Shown one piece after another: positions 21,710 through 40,571 of a stretch of DNA of 64,000 nt. Position 1 is the stretch's first letter. Each line of letters starts with the position of its first letter. The stretch is from the NCBI GenBank assembly GCA_002104985.1, contig MCGO01000034.1, positions 1 to 64,000 of the forward strand, written 5' to 3'. Source of the DNA: Rhizoclosmatium globosum. Taxonomy: Eukaryota; Chytridiomycota; Chytridiomycetes; Chytridiales; Chytriomycetaceae. The position numbers were made by a program, and so were the translations under genes. The notes beneath the pieces are model-generated. The model worked only from the letters and a program-made list of their open reading frames with translations, was not told where the DNA came from and did not search any database.

Positions 21710-24568
21710 ATGGTTAAACTCATATTCACGATTGACCGCAACAAGATCCTTGGCGAAGGGGCCTACAGTGTAGTGTACGAGGGAACATACGAAGACCGCC
21801 AAGTCGCGATCAAGACATTCAAGAAAGCAGCTGGGAAGGTTAACCCTGAACTACTCAAGGCCATTGAGAAAGAGGCGGCAATGGGTGCCCAACTCCGACA
21901 TCCAAACATAATATATTTCTGGGGACAGAGTGTCGATCCTGCGACAGGAGATCCGGTTCTTGTTCTTGACCGTCTTGGAAAGAGTGTGAACGATGCGATC
22001 CGCAAAGACCCGCCTCCCTCAGTCGCCATTCGAAACAAGTGGCTCCTTGATACTGCCAATGCTGTGAATTACTTGCATTCAGAAAACCCGCCAATCATCC
22101 ATCGCGATCTGAAACCCGATAATATCCTGCTGGGTATGTGTTGCCCTTAACTGTGAAAAACACTGCTCACACCAACTACCTGTACAGACATAACATCTAC
22201 TAAAGCCGTCCTTGCTGACTTTGGAAGGAGTACAAGTCTTTCCCTTCACACAACTTACTCAATCAACCATATCCCCAAAATTGGTCACATATTCTTTGCG
22301 GCTCCAGAAGCAACAAAGAAAGGATACATGCCGTCGACCAAGTACGATGTCTTCAGTTTTGGAATGACAATGTATTGCATCCTTACTCGACACTTGCCTT
22401 TTGAGGGTGAAGAAATGATTGACAACCGATGGATTGTAGCAAATTGGATTCATGGGGGTATTCGACCAGATCGGTCTGGCACAAGAAATTATTCCCGGCC
22501 TGTGGATGTCATAGCTGATGTGTCGTGGGATCTTATTGAATGCTGTTGGAACCAAGATGCCCATCAAAGGCCAAGTTTTGCAACAATCATTTCTGATATT
22601 GAGGCATATTGTGGTAAGTAATATCCTTTATTTAAGATTATCCTTCATTTAAGATAAAGAAATTTAAACTGTGGCATAGATCATGAAAAGTGCCTATCAT
22701 CAGGAAAGGCCTTTTATACAAAAAAAGAATATGGAAAGGCAGTGGCCCTTTTTTCCCACGCAGCTAATGAAGGACACGCGTACTGCCAATATTGGTTAGG
22801 AATCTGTTACAAAAATGGTCGTGGAGTGCCTCAAGATTATGCTGAGGCTGTGAAATGGTATCAAAAGTCTGCTGACCAAGGATATGCTTCAGCTCAGAAC
22901 AACTTGGGCTTCTGTTACAAAAAAGGCCACGGAGTGCCTCAAGATTATGCTGAGGCTGTTTGCTGGTATCAAAAGTCTGCTGACCAAGGGAATGCTTCAG
23001 CTCAGAACAACTTGGGGGACTGTTACGCAAATGGTCGTGGAGTGCCTCAAGATTATGCTGAGGCTGTGAAATGGTATCAAAAGTCTGCTGACCAAGGATA
23101 TGCTTCAGCTCAGAACAACTTGGGCTTCTGTTACAAAAAAGGCCACGGAGTGCCTCAAGATTATGCTGAGGCTGTTTGCTGGTATCAAAAGTCTGCTGAC
23201 CAAGGGAATGCTTCAGCTCAGAACAACTTGGGGGACTGTTACGCAAATGGTCGTGGAGTGCCTCAAGATTATGCTGAGGCTGTGAAATGGTATCAAAAGT
23301 CTGCTGACCAACAGAATTCCACAGCTCAGTACAACTTGGGCTTCTGTTACCAGCATGGCCGTGGAGTGCCTCAAGATTATGCTGAGGCTGTAAAATGGTA
23401 TCAAAAGTCTGCTGACCAAGGATATGCTTCAGCTCAGAACAACTTGGGCTTCTGTTACAAAAAAGGCCACGGAGTGCCTCAAGATTATGCTGCGGCCGTG
23501 CACTGGTATCAAAAGTCTGCTCACCAAGGGAATTCCACAGCTCAGAACAACTTGGGGGACTGTTACTATAATGGCCAAGGAGTGCTTCAAGATTATGCTG
23601 AGGCTGTAAAATGGTATCAAAAGTCTGCTGACCAAGGATATGCTTCAGCTCAGAACAACTTGGGCTTCTGTTACAAAAAAGTTCACGGAGTGCCTCAAGA
23701 TTATGCTGCGGCCGTGCACTGGTATCAAAAGTCTGCTGACCAAGGGAATGCTACAGCTCAGAACAACTTGGGGGACTGTTACAAAAAAGGCCACGGAGTG
23801 CCTCAAGATTATGCTGAGGCTGTGAAATGGTATCAAAAGTCTGCTGACCAACAGAATTCCACAGCTCAGTACAACTTGGGCGACTGTTACTATAATGGCC
23901 AAGGAGTGCTTCAAGATCATGCTGAGGCTGTGAAATGGTATCAAAAGTCTGCTGACCAAGGATATGCTTCAGCTCAGAACAACTTGGGCTTCTGTTACAA
24001 AAAAGGCCACGGAGTGCCTCAAGATTATGCTGCGGCCGTGCACTGGTATCAAAAGTCTGCTGACCAAGGGAATGCTACAGCTCAGAACAACTTGGGGGAC
24101 TGTTACAAAAAAGGCCACGGAGTGCCTCAAGATTATGCTGCGGCCGTGCACTGGTATCAAAAGTCTGCTCACCAAGGGAATTCCACAGCTCAGAACAACT
24201 TGGGGGACTGTTACCAGCATGGCCGTGGAGTGCCTCAAGATTATGCTGCGGCCGTGCACTGGTATCAAAAGTCTGCTGACCAAGGGAATGCTTCAGCTCA
24301 GAACAACTTGGGTTTCTGCTACCTAAAAGGCCATGGAGTGCCTCAAGATTATGCTGAGGCTGTGCGCTGGTATCAAAAGTCTGCTGACCAAGGGAATGCT
24401 ACAGCTCAGTACAAGTTGGGTTTCTGTTACGAAAATGGCCATGGAGTGCCTCAAGACTACAATCAAGCTGCAAGTTGGTATCAAAAAGCTGCAGATCAAG
24501 GTCATATAGAAGGAATACGTTGTTTGGCCAATGTCATCAAGAAGAAAGACAGGGGACTCTTAAGGTGA
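21710..24568 (+). CDS. TKL-type kinase with about 17 near-identical Sel1 repeats
   Basis: Three exons encode about 910 residues. Kinase motifs: ILGEGAYSVVYEG, VAIK, IIHRDLKPDNILLG, LADFGRSTS. Introns match those of the 19168 gene in place and phase. The C-terminus is a Sel1 solenoid of about 17 units of 36 residues (typical core GVPQDYAEAVKWYQKSADQG). The start is ATG at 21710; an in-frame TTG lies just upstream. Compared with kinase 2 the repeats are far more alike, so this array grew or was homogenised recently. Likely role: partner-dependent kinase signalling, as for its neighbours. Confidence 0.88.
22742..24480 (+). repeat. 108-base Sel1 repeat array with 216-base higher-order copies
   Basis: Tandem 108-base units, about 17 of them, many differing by only a few bases. 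Two consecutive 216-base blocks (about 22850-23065 and 23066-23281) look identical, showing duplication in pairs. Confidence 0.92.
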
Positions 24569-35059: not shown

Positions 35060-35557
35060 ACGTGGCAAGTAATCCTTTTTTTCCTCTTTCCTTTTGCAGT
35101 GTTTTAACAAAGATACCCGAAATAGTAAACTCGATCGCAAACTCGGAAAACGACACTACAGAACAACGAAAGCATCCGAAAAGTTCAACAAAGAGCCAAA
35201 AGAGCACGATGGGAGCCAAATTAGGTGTGCACTCCGAGCAAGGGAATCCGCACAAACGTGAATTCACTCGTCATGTTAGATCCAAAGAAAAAGACAGGCG
35301 CGGGGAATGCAGTTGGTTGCTTAGTGTTTCGTACCCTGTTTCGATGATAATAATAGGGTCCTTTTCTCCGGCTTCATTGATCACGAAGTTACTTTTTGTT
35401 TGTTCTCTTTATATTCTGAGCTCATTTCAAGTTTGCTTTTGATATCTGGATTTTGGTTTTATCTTACTTTGTTGCATCATAATAGTTGACTAGCATTCAG
35501 GGTGTACGTATTATTCTTTCCCTCATCGAAGGTATGATTTGTATTTACCCTTAATCA
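35060..35557. other. Intergenic stretch
   Basis: About 500 bases; short open frames on both strands with no features. Probably 3' region of one gene and promoter of the LRR gene. Confidence 0.4.
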
Positions 35558-37255
35558 ATGATCAATGCATCCACAACACCAAACAAGCAAAGCCCGCTGA
35601 TCACAACTATTCATGGCTCTAAGATATCGCTCATCACGCATGCCTTGTTCCTGATCCATCCCTACTTGGAAGAGATGCTTTCCCTCAAGGCAATCCTCTT
35701 CCTCCTTTCAACCTGCAAATACTTTTCACAAGCCCGAGTCAAACACATTGGCACAATGAAAGTGGTGCTGACCTTTGGGCCCAGTTCACTTGCACGGCAG
35801 CTCCAAAGCAGCAACAACAGCCTGGTGCCATTTATTAAAATAGCCTCGTTGGACTTGACAAACTGGGTCAATGCGATCTTGTCTCACATTTCTGATTTAA
35901 AGCGCTTCAGGTTTCACGGTTATCGACAGCGCAAGGACCTGGTTCCTGTGTGGGAGACACTGTTCTTTTGGTTTCTGCCCTCGCACAATCCTCACCTGTA
36001 TTCGTTCTGTGGAATGAAGAGGCTGGACATGCATTCTATTCCTAAACTGGTTCCGTGGGATGTATTGGTGAACTTGGAAGTTCTTACATGCGATATGGTT
36101 GCTTTCACTCCCGATTGCTGCCCTCCGAAATTGAGGGACCTTGAACTAATTGTCTGTGGTGACGATTTTGCCGAATTAACTTGTTGCAAAACTTTGGAGG
36201 CTTTGTCTGTGGACTTTGTCGTACATTCTTTTGCTCAATCGTCGCAAGACACTCACAGCACGTCTCCCGCCAGCGGCAATCCTTTCCCATTCTTATCTGA
36301 ATTGGACGTGTTAAACTGGAAAACAACAAACTGGAGCATTCTAAGATCAATCACATCTATCCAATGGCTGACATTGAGTTCTGACCTTGATGTTGCATGG
36401 GAAACAGATGTTTCAAGCCTTGCCCCCCTTGATAATCTGCAAAAATTATCACTGACAGTTTCTAAACTTCATAATATTGATTTTCTTCAAAACCACTTGA
36501 AATTGTCATATTTATGTCTGAATTTGGACAACCTGTCTGATTTGACACCATTAAGCTTACTTTCTCAATTAGAAACATTGAATCTCGCACAGTGTTCAAG
36601 TTCCGACTATGATGCATTACGGGACTTGATAAATCTGAAAGTTCTTGATATTCGACAATCTCCAGACCTGACATGTCTTAAATTCCTTTCAACAATGACG
36701 CAACTGAAAGTTCTATATTTGAGCGAAACTCACGTCACAAATCTGTCGCCATTGCTGTATTGCAGTGATATTACGTGTTTGGAGGTATCATTTTGCCCCA
36801 TCTCTGACATCTCAGTGCTTGCCAACCTCACGTCATTGAAGTCACTCTGCCTGGGCCGAACGAAAGTCGAAGATATTTCCCCCATCGCAAAATTAAAACG
36901 CTTGGAGAGTTTGAGTCTGACGAATATTAGATCACCAGACCTATCCGCACTCAGTGAATTGTGCACTCAACTGACGAACTTGACTCTATCTCACTGCAGT
37001 ATGACAAACCAAAATGGACAAGCACTATCGGTATTCTCGCGTCTTCAAACGCTGGACCTTGATTACAATGCAGATGTTTCAGATCTTTCGTTCCTCTCTT
37101 CTCATCAGCATCTTAAAGTGTTGAGTATTTCACATACGGGAGTGGTGGATATAGCATCGCTTGTGAATATCTCTACGCTTCGATTATTGTATTGTTGGGG
37201 CACGCGAGTAGTAACGCCAAATTTATTGCGAGGCGTTCATGTACACACTGATTAG
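35558..37255 (+). CDS. Leucine-rich repeat protein, SDS22/internalin-like
   Basis: A single open frame of 565 residues without introns, unusual here. The N-terminal 60 residues (LFLIHPYLEEMLSLKAILFLLSTCKYF) recall an F-box-like helix bundle, weakly. From about residue 180 the protein is a series of LRRs of about 22 residues (LTSLKSLCLGRTKVEDISPI, LKVLYLSETHVTNLSPL), the SDS22 type. No signal peptide or membrane segment, so cytosolic or nuclear. LRRs bind proteins; if the F-box is real it would be a substrate receptor of an SCF ubiquitin ligase. It lies 1 kb upstream of the TIR-SAM gene on the same strand, with one small gene between. Confidence 0.85.
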   Translation: MINASTTPNKQSPLITTIHGSKISLITHALFLIHPYLEEMLSLKAILFLLSTCKYFSQARVKHIGTMKVVLTFGPSSLARQLQSSNNSLVPFIKIASLDLTNWVNAILSHISDLKRFRFHGYRQRKDLVPVWETLFFWFLPSHNPHLYSFCGMKRLDMHSIPKLVPWDVLVNLEVLTCDMVAFTPDCCPPKLRDLELIVCGDDFAELTCCKTLEALSVDFVVHSFAQSSQDTHSTSPASGNPFPFLSELDVLNWKTTNWSILRSITSIQWLTLSSDLDVAWETDVSSLAPLDNLQKLSLTVSKLHNIDFLQNHLKLSYLCLNLDNLSDLTPLSLLSQLETLNLAQCSSSDYDALRDLINLKVLDIRQSPDLTCLKFLSTMTQLKVLYLSETHVTNLSPLLYCSDITCLEVSFCPISDISVLANLTSLKSLCLGRTKVEDISPIAKLKRLESLSLTNIRSPDLSALSELCTQLTNLTLSHCSMTNQNGQALSVFSRLQTLDLDYNADVSDLSFLSSHQHLKVLSISHTGVVDIASLVNISTLRLLYCWGTRVVTPNLLRGVHVHTD

Positions 37256-37671
37256 AAACGCGAGGTTGTAGACTGAAACTTATTGAAATCAATAAAGAGA
37301 ATATGAATAGCAACGTTACTGTCTCTACAATTTGTTTTATTGGATGCTAAAAACAACAACACAAACCCCAACCTCGCCATCAACACTGAAAAAAATCTTT
37401 CCTCGCAAATACAAATATTATTAATGCAGCAGTATTTGACTTTGGGTGATCTTATTCCCCAGTAAACACGTCTTTTCCGAGTGACTGGAAACGTATTCAA
37501 TCGCCTCATGTAAAAAAACTTGTATATTTGAGAACGAGCTGATCACTGTTCTACATTTAATTTGTTGTGGAGATCGGAAAAGTGCACATCAGAAAGGGAG
37601 ATCGGCACTCGCTGTTGATTGATGATGTTCCAAACGAAATTCAAACCAAATTAAGCAATAATCAACTGAAA
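37256..37671. other. Intergenic stretch before the small cysteine protein
   Basis: The reading frame of the following gene is open back to 37567 but lacks an ATG there; an upstream exon is possible. Nothing else seen. Confidence 0.35.
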
Positions 37672-38184
37672 ATGGAAAAGTCTCCAATCGGTTTCGGTCA
37701 CCTCAACTTGACACTCAGAGACAGTGCCAACATCCCTCAATTCAAAGTTGCATACCCCGGCTACGACCTTCCCCACTTTGACTTTAAGACTTTTCCAAAT
37801 GTCCCTGATTTCCATTTATGCTCCGCTTACTGTGCGACGGCTGGGAACGACCGGGCTCGTTTCTTCGTGTACAACAAGGCCAGCCAAAACTGTTTTTGTA
37901 AGGAGCCTTTCTATGAAAAGGGACGCTTGATGCTTTACGGAGATCCATGTGATGGCCGCAATATTGTGGTTGATGCCGACTTTCCAGGTGCTTTTGATAG
38001 TTGGTCTGTTCGTGCGGACTACAACGAATGCAGAGCCTTGGCTATGCCTGTTCTTCTTCCGTCTCCTGGTCTTACCGTTTTGAATGTTGTTCCAAATGGT
38101 TGGAATGATAATTGTTTCCAAAAGTTGTTTCCCCGTTTGCCTAACCGTGATGATGTTGTGACTGGATTCCTTTCCTTCTGTTGA
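37672..38184 (+). CDS. Small cysteine-containing protein, possibly WSC/PAN-like
   Basis: From ATG 37672 about 170 residues; the frame is open further upstream to 37567. The centre (HLCSAYCATAGNDRARFF, then NCFCKEPF and GDPC) resembles WSC- or PAN-type cysteine domains in which a Cys pair is followed by an aromatic stretch and C-x-C. There is no signal peptide at this start, so either an upstream exon is missing or the protein is not secreted. The gene ends only about 60 bases before the TIR-SAM gene. Function unknown. Confidence 0.55.
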   Translation: MEKSPIGFGHLNLTLRDSANIPQFKVAYPGYDLPHFDFKTFPNVPDFHLCSAYCATAGNDRARFFVYNKASQNCFCKEPFYEKGRLMLYGDPCDGRNIVVDADFPGAFDSWSVRADYNECRALAMPVLLPSPGLTVLNVVPNGWNDNCFQKLFPRLPNRDDVVTGFLSFC

Positions 38185-38245: not shown

Positions 38246-40571
38246 ATGATTTCAGCAATAAGAGACCAAGTCCCCTTACCAGATGGATGCGAATACCACG
38301 TCATGATGTCCTACTGGTAAAAGAAATATTTCAAAGAAGGTAACTTCTAAACACCGAATAGTTGGGCCCAGAAAGACATTGTGTGTGAGATCCAGCACTA
38401 CCTCTGTTCAAATGGCCTCAAAGTATGGCGGGACGAAGAGCAAATGACTGGCGATACCGTTCGCAGAATGGTTGAAGGGATCTCTCAATCTCGGATCATT
38501 CTTGTCCATATGAGTGCAGCCTATGAAGTTAGCTGAAGCGGACTTAAATTGGTTGTACCCACCCACTAACACTCAACTTTACTAGTGCTCAAAGAACTGC
38601 CAGCGCGAACTCAACTTTTGCTATGACGATGAAACCAAGCATTTGATTCCAGTAATTCTTGATAAGGGCCCCTTTCCGGTCACTAAATTCAAGACTGGCT
38701 CAACAACGGCTTTTCACTTTGATCTTTCCGACCACTTGAATGATCCAAATCGACTTGATAATATCAAACAGAGACTATTGAGTGAGATATTTACTGTTTT
38801 GGGGTATAAGCCTACTGCCGCAGTTCCGTCTGTTGTTTCCAGTGTCTCTGTAAGGATTTCCTATGGTATTCCTATTTCAATTAATTGCATTAAAGGAGCA
38901 ATCAGCACAAAAGCTCACACTCACACAAGCTATCGTTCGTCTCTCTGAAACAAAAGAAATCCTCAAACTCATGATCGACACAAAACTCATTGAATCCTTG
39001 GACGACCTCAATGAAGCGTGTGACGATGCTCTCGCCGAATTTCGGGAACAAGTCACAGAAACTGCCTTTGATTCCCTTCAGAAGCAATTCGAAGCTCGCG
39101 TTCGCAGACCTCTCTTGAAAACACTTGAAAAAACGCCTCAGTCTTCAAAGCCAGCAACAATCCTCAAAGGCTTTCTGCCAAAATCAAGCAGCTTCTCGTC
39201 TCAACTGGATGGAGTTGAGTCTTTGCCCTGGTGGAAACGCTTGATGAGTGGATCCTCCGAACCATCGAGACTTCCAAGTAGTGACTCGTTCTTGAATGGA
39301 ATCAGTCCCGACGAGGATCCACGGTAAGCCATTCGCCTTAAAATAACGAAGAGTGACAGAAATGTTGAAATAAGAACGGCCAAACTCCTCGAAGCCATGG
39401 CTTTCAGTGGAATCAATACCATGGCTGCTACAGAAGCTCGTCGTGGTGGATATGTGCTTCCATCGCTTCCTTCAAACTGGTCTGTCCGTGATGTGGTTGC
39501 ATGGGCAAGACAACAAGATTCTTCTCCCCAATTGATTCGTTTCTTGAAAGGTAAGTGGATTTTATTATGTGCAATTATTTATCTTAACTGTTCGTTGTAG
39601 AGGAAGAAATCGACGGACATGCCTTACTTCTTCTCACCGAGTACCAACTTCAATTTTTGAAAGTAGGACCACGCATTATATTCCTCGACAAAATCCACGC
39701 CCTCGAGCAAATCAATGAATCTGGATTAGCCGAGATCGAAGAAACGTCCAGAGTCGTCGAAACTGTTGTTCCAATACCTGAAGTACTCAATGAATCTGCA
39801 CCCATCTCCACACTGCCCCCATCTTACCTTGAAACGACATCTCATCCTGCCAGTCCTCCAACTGATGCTCCACAAGCAAATGAAGCACAAACTTCATCAA
39901 CTGAAAAAGAAGCACAAGCTACCCCGCTTACAGACGAATCATTCTTTGGCGACCTAGTCCTTCCATCACTGCCTGGAAAATGGTCTGCCGCGGATGTGCT
40001 TGAATGGGTCACAAAGAATGAAGGAACACCTGAGCTGATTGAATTTACGAAAAGTAAGTTTGAAGTTTGGATTAAATCTGTTGCTAATACGTTTTCAGAT
40101 CAAGATATTGACGGAATCGCTCTTTTGGGTCTTGTCGAGAGAGACGTTTCCTTCCTCCCTATTGGTCCCCGCGTTCGTTTCCTAGAAAAAGTGAACGAAC
40201 TCAATCAGATTAACATCAGTGTAAAAGTGCGTGAAGAACCTCCCTCAAAGAAGATGGTTTCTAATTTTGGGGACTTGGTTTTACCTACGCTTCCGAGTTA
40301 TTGGACCGTGGAAGAAACTGTTCAATGGATTCTTCAGAATGGAGGTACAAAAGAGATTTTGCAGTTCGTTCAAGGTATTTTCTTTGTCTTTCTTGCTTTA
40401 TTCGCTGATTTGTTTGTTCAAGGCCAACGAACTGGAGGAAGCACACTCCTCTCACTCAAGATTTACGATTTCGTATTCCCTACTATTGGTCAAAGAATTC
40501 GGTTCAAGGTTGCTTTGGAAGCTCTCCAAGAAAGGGAATTAGATGAAGCTGCACCACCAGCTTACGTATAA
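38246..40571 (+). CDS. TIR domain protein with three SAM domains
   Basis: Eight exons (38246-38316, 38362-38527, 38586-38849, 38896-39323, 39375-39550, 39601-40053, 40099-40374, 40423-40571) join in frame to 660 residues. TIR spans about residues 15-150: strand YHVMMSYCW, helix, VWRDEEQMTGDT (BB-loop region), RIILVHMSAAYE, then SKNCQRELNFC and HLIPVILD. Glu87 in NCQRELN lies where the catalytic glutamate of NADase TIR domains such as SARM1 is found. Residues about 150-310 are helical. Three SAM domains follow (near 335-400, 485-555, 585-650), each starting LPSLP or LPTLP with a Trp two residues later and containing a GPRxxFL-like helix. SARM1 has the order ARM-SAM-SAM-TIR; here TIR comes first. 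NADase activity and SAM-driven oligomerisation are inferred. Confidence 0.85.

Follow-up and report, generated by a model that had tools for sequence, protein, structure and literature searches.

A TIR domain joined to three SAM domains in a predicted chytrid protein, with SAM units related to the tails of likely membrane proteins

Immunity and cell death in animals, plants and bacteria depend centrally on TIR proteins, whose TIR domain often sets off cell death by cleaving the fuel molecule NAD. The subject here is a gene at positions 38246–40571 of the plus strand in a 64,000-nucleotide stretch of the chytrid Rhizoclosmatium globosum genome, called the window below, which encodes a TIR domain followed by a linker and three SAM domains. 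Among the closest described systems are SARM1 and nematode TIR-1, which likewise hold a TIR domain and tandem SAM domains in one protein. Papers are cited by their PMC identifiers and for the passages available from them. In SARM1 a ring of SAM domains unites the TIR NADase units (PMC7282519). The order there is ARM-SAM-SAM-TIR, whereas the chytrid protein has the TIR first and the SAMs last, as the initial annotation of this locus had proposed. SARM1 homologues were reported in choanoflagellates (PMC6040629).

The two domains have also been combined by design. A review reports that SARM1 SAM domains placed on either end of plant TIR domains enable NADase activity, citing the C-terminal case as unpublished (PMC7282519). 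TIR-SAM fusions expressed in Nicotiana benthamiana gave a Glu-dependent product, and one fusion triggered cell death (PMC10242710). The likeness to the chytrid protein, as proposed below, is that an attached SAM would activate a TIR, with either end reported to work in the designed fusions. Such fusions are artificial and not always active, whereas the chytrid combination is natural and its SAMs are of a chytrid subfamily. A TIR-SAM model from amphioxus, with both domains in one predicted gene and a reported cDNA (PMC2575513), comes from an animal and is likened to the chytrid protein by domain combination alone.

In fungi, TIR or TIR-like domains with a link to cell death or immunity have been described in TIR-NLRs and HET proteins (PMC9815663, PMC10197012, PMC12881547). 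Those proteins carry NACHT/NB-ARC or HET domains, whereas the chytrid protein carries SAMs, and no NACHT/NB-ARC nucleotide-binding domain was found in it by Pfam. TIR was reported in NLRs of Chytridiomycota (PMC9815663) and in a small group of fungal TIR-NLRs (PMC10197012); a 2014 study found no NLRs in chytrids (PMC4986451). According to a 2026 preprint (PMC13142454), TIR proteins are mostly known for roles in immunity and cell death and form 13 clades, the SARM1 clade being Clade 8. It states that a very small number of fungal TIRs had been reported earlier, and that fungal TIRs occur in EukProt only in R. globosum and are absent from the InterPro STIR clan. No analysis of the R. globosum TIRs was seen in its available passages. 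Nor was a description of a fungal TIR-SAM protein found in the available passages of the literature searched. The earlier claim that no described fungal protein has this layout thus holds for that literature, but two undescribed entries exist at NCBI, P0001 (TIR followed by three SAMs) and P0002 (TIR-C2 with a SAM-like end). Both are annotated 'hypothetical protein' and both start inside the TIR domain.

At the locus, eight exons separated by seven GT..AG introns of 45–58 nt give one open frame of 660 codons plus a stop. Exon 1 (38246..38316) holds the start codon and strand beta-A of the TIR (YHVMMSYC). After intron 1 (38317..38361; 45 nt, phase 2), exon 2 (38362..38527) encodes the middle of the TIR (WAQKD...DEEQMTGD...MSAAYE), with a match to TIR_2. 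Intron 2 (38528..38585; 58 nt, phase 0) precedes exon 3 (38586..38849), the C-terminal half of the TIR with the motif NCQREL. Exon 4 (38896..39323), set between intron 3 (38850..38895; 46 nt, phase 0) and intron 4 (39324..39374; 51 nt, phase 2), encodes a linker. Exon 5 (39375..39550) ends the linker and begins SAM1, and exon 6 (39601..40053) holds the remainder of SAM1, a spacer and the first part of SAM2. Exon 7 (40099..40374) completes SAM2 and begins SAM3, and exon 8 (40423..40571) carries the remainder of SAM3 and the stop codon. The last three introns, 5 (39551..39600; 50 nt), 6 (40054..40098; 45 nt) and 7 (40375..40422; 48 nt), are all of phase 1. The reported model is based on conserved splice sites and on the NCBI relative from R. 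hyalinum; a gene finder using codon statistics only mis-spliced the TIR exons and, at one setting, started the gene at 38863. A Pfam scan of the linker between TIR and SAM1 gave no domain above cut-off, and its middle is matched, among the genome matches listed, only by the gene's other copies.

The genome examined comprises 56.9 Mb in 420 contigs, and the window is part of contig C268. The locus is present on two further contigs, C381 and C108, which are 97.7% and 96.2% identical to the window. The C381 copy has collinear flanks and retains the frame and all seven introns with their splice sites. Between it and the window gene there are 33 synonymous changes in 454.7 sites and 7 nonsynonymous changes in 1525.3 sites (pN/pS 0.063); over residues 1–150, the TIR part, the counts are 8 and 0. 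The comparison shows that the gene is under purifying selection. The C108 copy (L055) is collinear and has several small exon gaps, some of a single base and three seen in short one-base runs, which may reflect sequencing error or decay. The ATG at 38246 is conserved in 3 of 3 genome copies. An upstream fusion to a neighbouring PAN-domain gene, by way of a possible 3′ splice site whose last base is 38255, was considered and rejected; the AG of that site is GG in C381 and falls within a 6-base deletion in C108.

The same joined protein occurs outside R. globosum. P0001 (HDU99_003349) is a partial protein of R. hyalinum, a chytrid of the family Chytriomycetaceae, and is 97% identical; it begins within the TIR and extends to the third SAM. 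Protein searches with the whole protein, the TIR region and a five-row alignment (7987, 94 and 7986 candidates, respectively) returned, among these candidates, the same two R. hyalinum proteins. Bacterial and archaeal genomes gave 21 pattern matches, with only one distant partial TIR (32%), and viral contigs gave 23 pattern matches with no relatives. A bacterial contaminant is ruled out by the seven introns and the two further genomic copies.

The TIR domain called in the initial annotation is confirmed across most of its profile. Pfam TIR_2 matches residues 19–129 of the joined protein at E 5.4e-16 (59.6 bits against a cut-off of 28; profile positions 1–111 of 122), and residues 1–155 alone give E 3.8e-17. 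The domain as delimited here covers residues 19–131 (38300..38741), across introns 1 and 2. Glu87 (codon 38607..38609), the E of NCQREL, is the putative catalytic glutamate. In a profile built from eight TIRs of this genome it is invariant (8/8) and aligns with the E of WCLEEL in Roq1, WCVREL in RPS4 and WCWDEL in Cat1, which upholds the catalytic position assigned to it initially. The aligned Glu residues of Roq1 and RPS4 are their catalytic residues, and Cat1 is an NAD-cleaving CRISPR effector. In a TIR survey, more than 90% of the TIRs of plant NLRs and of SARM1 have this Glu, and NADase activity has been reported for both groups; in one TIR subclass that activity was found to hinge on the Glu (PMC7075850).

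Kinship of the TIR was judged by ranking among solved structures. The TIR profile finds Cat1 first (3.8e-11), followed by RPS4 (1.1e-7), Roq1 (4.1e-7) and MyD88 (7e-7). The best SARM1-type match is the nematode TIR-1/SARM1 TIR at E 0.0013, behind the Cat1, plant and MyD88 TIRs. By this ranking the TIR of the chytrid protein is not of SARM1 type and appears nearer to the Cat1 and plant TIRs.

The three SAM domains called initially all stand by homology, but not equally by Pfam. On the joined protein, SAM_1 has its best stretch at residues 343–403 (E 6.5e-8), and SAM_PNT matches two stretches, the best at 487–534 (E 7.2e-8). SAM1 (residues 343 to about 410; 39472..39725) is above the Pfam cut-off when scanned alone (SAM_1, E 6.5e-6). 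SAM2 (residues 487 to about 558; 39954..40214) is 51% identical to SAM1 and matches SAM_PNT in the whole protein; alone it is weak and falls below the cut-off (SAM_PNT, E 0.0017). SAM3 (residues about 580–652; 40278..40544) gives no SAM match when scanned alone with Pfam and has QRTGG where EIDG is expected. It is 33% identical to SAM1, 35% to SAM2, and 48% and 40% to SAM tails encoded elsewhere in the genome at L063 and L061; the L061 unit itself matches SAM_PNT (E 7.1e-8). In all three SAMs of the window protein a phase-1 intron lies 24 codons after the conserved Trp. Because of its identity to the other SAMs and the same internal intron, SAM3 is, on sequence grounds, a SAM by descent, though diverged.

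SAM domains of Polyhomeotic, Scm and ETV6 are polymer formers. When the SAM profile is compared with solved chains of single units, Polyhomeotic and Scm come first (E 1.5e-8 to 1e-7), and the SARM1 SAMs follow at E 2.8e-4. Since Polyhomeotic and Scm are the closest single-unit chains, it is reasonable to suppose that SAM-driven clustering of the chytrid protein would take place.

The SAM part has many relatives in the genome. Among the matches listed, at least 31 non-self places match it at the exon level, and 19 of these loci were examined (L027, L029, L030, L037 and L059–L073). They lie on contigs C212, C27, C414, C157, C159, C223 and C68, partly in tandem arrays. Ahead of the SAM, 18 of the 19 loci have a hydrophobic segment in a coding-like frame, and in 16 of those 18 it is glycine-rich (e.g. 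GGVVGGLVVL); the segments of L060 and L061 are unlike this kind and doubtful. Under the same rule, with a hydrophobicity threshold of 2.0 that was chosen after the values had been seen, no segment was scored at ten loci with other SAMs and one was scored among seven TIR loci. The examined loci are partly copies (identical SAMs in L029/L030 and L069/L072, nearly identical ones in L037/L059) and represent fewer than 19 independent genes, and the control loci likewise include copies of one another. Because of the hydrophobic segment upstream of the SAM, these loci likely encode proteins that cross the membrane once and carry at their C-terminus a SAM that presumably lies in the cytosol.

The highest identities to the SAMs of these likely membrane proteins are 57% for SAM1, 55% for SAM2 and 48% for SAM3, against at most 33% to the seven other SAMs compared. 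The phase-1 intron lies at the identical codon, 24 after the Trp, in all 11 membrane-protein SAMs that could be spliced. Their splice sites were taken as the open GT..AG pair with the highest score against the SAM profile (score gaps 8–77 bits), in which the window SAMs and three of the tails are themselves included. In a SAM tree of 30 rows (28 different), from which the mis-spliced unit of L068 was dropped and which has no SARM1 row, the units of membrane proteins, TIR-SAM and TIR-C2-SAM proteins fall on one side and the other SAMs on the other, with support 98/96. The shared intron position and phase point to a SAM module of one origin that was spread by exon shuffling.

The reading that we favour, with moderate confidence, is that of a functional gene for a cytosolic TIR-linker-SAM-SAM-SAM protein, a NAD-cleaving TIR clustered by its SAMs and perhaps recruited by SAM-tailed membrane proteins. 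From the homologies above we infer the following sequence of events. The SAM units would gather several copies and bring the TIR domains side by side. Adjoining TIRs would form a NAD-cleaving site around Glu87, and the assembled site would cut NAD+ or make an ADP-ribose signal, which may end in a stress or cell-death response. As an extension of this model, the trigger may be SAM-to-SAM recruitment to membrane proteins, since the SAMs of the TIR protein share an exon-shuffled subfamily with the C-terminal SAMs of the membrane proteins. The inverted domain order should be no obstacle because NADase activity is reported for plant TIRs with SARM1 SAMs attached at one end or the other (PMC7282519), and clustering from the end opposite to that in SARM1 is, by this analogy, mechanistically plausible.

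Several points weigh against this reading. SAM3 has diverged and its binding may be lost. The resemblance to Polyhomeotic and Scm is by profile only, and polymerisation is not readable from it; ETV6/TEL tops the same profile list only through engineered multi-SAM chains, its single chains scoring 0.003, behind SARM1. The proposed membrane link is drawn from common SAM descent and intron placement rather than from binding, and even here seven of the 19 membrane-protein loci have a SAM uninterrupted by such an intron, one further locus being mis-spliced. In the tree, support for placing SAM1 and SAM2 with six membrane-protein SAMs is only 88/90, SAM3 stands apart, and long branches are flagged. 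The TIR domain has NC where the plant and Cat1 TIRs have WC. A survey found the same Glu in more than 90% of the TIRs of TLR1/2/6/10 and noted that its frequency need not track activity (PMC7075850). As the Glu is also common in some TLR TIRs, it is by itself no proof of catalysis. Two other TIR-SAM fusions in the Nicotiana study gave no cell death, and their protein was undetected (PMC10242710).

It is possible, though we think it unlikely, that the TIR is instead a non-enzymatic scaffold. SAM clustering would then expose TIR surfaces that recruit other TIR proteins, in the manner of MyD88, without NAD cleavage. The invariance of Glu87 and its neighbouring residues in the eight genome TIRs speaks for an enzyme rather than a scaffold, as does the top profile match, the NAD-cleaving Cat1. 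A scaffold would nevertheless have many possible partners in a genome with 92 TIR_2 exon matches; MyD88 TIRs are also picked up by the profile (E about 1e-6), and the Glu is also present in TIRs without known activity (PMC7075850).

We also offer, as a tentative and rather unlikely proposal, a fungal pathway resembling that of Toll and MyD88 in which the SAM would serve as the connector. SAM-tailed single-pass membrane proteins, encoded in tandem arrays, would cluster on a signal and, by contact between SAMs, recruit the TIR-SAM-SAM-SAM and TIR-C2-SAM proteins, and TIR NAD cleavage would be switched on; the SAM would have spread between membrane proteins and TIR effectors by exon shuffling with its phase-1 intron.

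The SAMs might serve localisation only, for example to membrane proteins or the cytoskeleton, with a TIR acting constitutively in NAD metabolism or in development, such as zoospore formation, and not in death or defence. Kinship of the SAMs with membrane-protein tails is compatible with such a role, and the gene is under strong constraint instead of evolving fast. We hold it to be doubtful, in that the multiplied SAMs suggest clustering and, elsewhere, TIR proteins have mostly been linked to immunity and cell death (PMC13142454).

Close kinship with SARM1 is not supported. Both proteins join a TIR with tandem SAMs, and the SAM profile does find the SARM1 SAMs at E 2.8e-4. A SARM1 orthologue, or a SARM1-derived protein with permuted domains, is nonetheless very improbable. 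Pfam detects no ARM repeat at E up to 1, the domain order is opposite, and each of the two profiles, TIR and SAM, gives better scores with other families, with TIR-1/SARM1 behind the plant, MyD88 and Cat1 TIRs. The SAMs fall with those of membrane proteins from the same genome, in the tree without a SARM1 row. As no ARM was found, the order is opposite and the TIR profile is nearer to Cat1 and plant TIRs, the chytrid protein, judged from its sequence, is not a SARM1 orthologue.

That two neighbouring genes, a wrong model or a misassembly give only the look of a fusion is most improbable: an ATG at 38863, within intron 3 and in frame with exon 4, was picked by the codon-statistics gene finder and would be needed for a separate SAM gene, but it is GTG in both C381 and C108, which disfavours a split, while P0001 is the same joined protein and the paralogue P0002 is also a single NCBI protein, from TIR to a SAM-like end below the Pfam cut-off.

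TIR proteins are rarely reported in fungi (PMC13142454), and this chytrid genome is TIR-rich. The strongest new element is this TIR-rich fungal genome together with a SAM module common to TIR proteins and likely membrane proteins. With its SAMs at the end opposite to those of SARM1, a naturally occurring TIR-SAM protein offers a test of whether the pairing of SAM clustering with a TIR has been invented repeatedly as a switch. The likely membrane proteins with SAM tails are a concrete upstream candidate for the TIR-SAM-SAM-SAM protein, and the shared tails hint at an unexplored fungal TIR signalling pathway.

The 92 TIR_2 exon matches are spread over 58 contigs and make up 80–90 clusters, the number varying with the gap permitted. 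Several TIR loci exist in two or three copies, so distinct genes are fewer than clusters. Part of the TIR loci were read (L001–L008, L049–L058, L075 and L076), with rough gene models that served for domain content only. The TIR-SAM-SAM-SAM architecture has three copies in the genome. A second architecture, TIR-C2-disordered-SAM, is encoded by two tandem genes at L057 (C246:346500-354500), again by rough models. Both models are split at the same two TIR codons as the window gene, matching intron 1 and the donor of intron 2. The R. hyalinum protein P0002 (HDU99_005644) matches these C246 genes; its C2 is found by Pfam, and its SAM is below cut-off (SAM_PNT, E 0.0043). The NCBI record of P0002 starts inside the TIR, and public models may thus be truncated. 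Among the loci read, and by the subfamily profile, this SAM subfamily accompanies TIR only in the window-gene copies and on C246.

Other TIR genes carry different partners. TIR with Sel1 repeats is found on C35 (Sel1 by Pfam, E 3.1e-50) and, by model, on C403, with the same TIRs on C247. In this set (L056, L058 and L075, on C403, C35 and C247) neighbouring TIR genes on several contigs are followed by Sel1 repeats, and in one of the TIRs SESAQKEL replaces NCQREL with the Glu retained. The TIR-Sel1 locus matches on four contigs (C403, C28, C35 and C247), alongside the three contigs of the window locus; such multi-contig loci may reflect more than two haplotypes, segmental copies or assembly effects. 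Two genes on C201 (L001 and L002) have a long N-terminal region, in which Pfam finds nothing convincing, followed by TIR-TIR and a tail resembling a coiled coil. At L008 (C366:863k) the TIR exon adjoins a NACHT-type frame (NPHP3_N, E 3.9e-15), and at L003 (C224) the TIR adjoins a P-loop NTPase region of NPHP3_N/NACHT type by resemblance; both look like NLR-like genes in a chytrid. The rough model of L004 (C366:393k) has a strongly hydrophobic stretch upstream of the TIR, possibly a membrane-bound TIR. The genome also has 17 HET domain matches, and TIR and HET thus co-occur.

Within the window, an open frame with leucine-rich repeats (LRR_4) lies just upstream of the TIR-SAM gene at 35555–37255 on the plus strand. 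The PAN-domain open frame, just over the Pfam cut-off, occupies 37561–38184 on the same strand and ends 61 bases before the TIR-SAM start, a gap identical in 3 of 3 genome copies. Farther upstream, at 22658–24568, also on the plus strand, an open frame has 16 Sel1 repeat matches.

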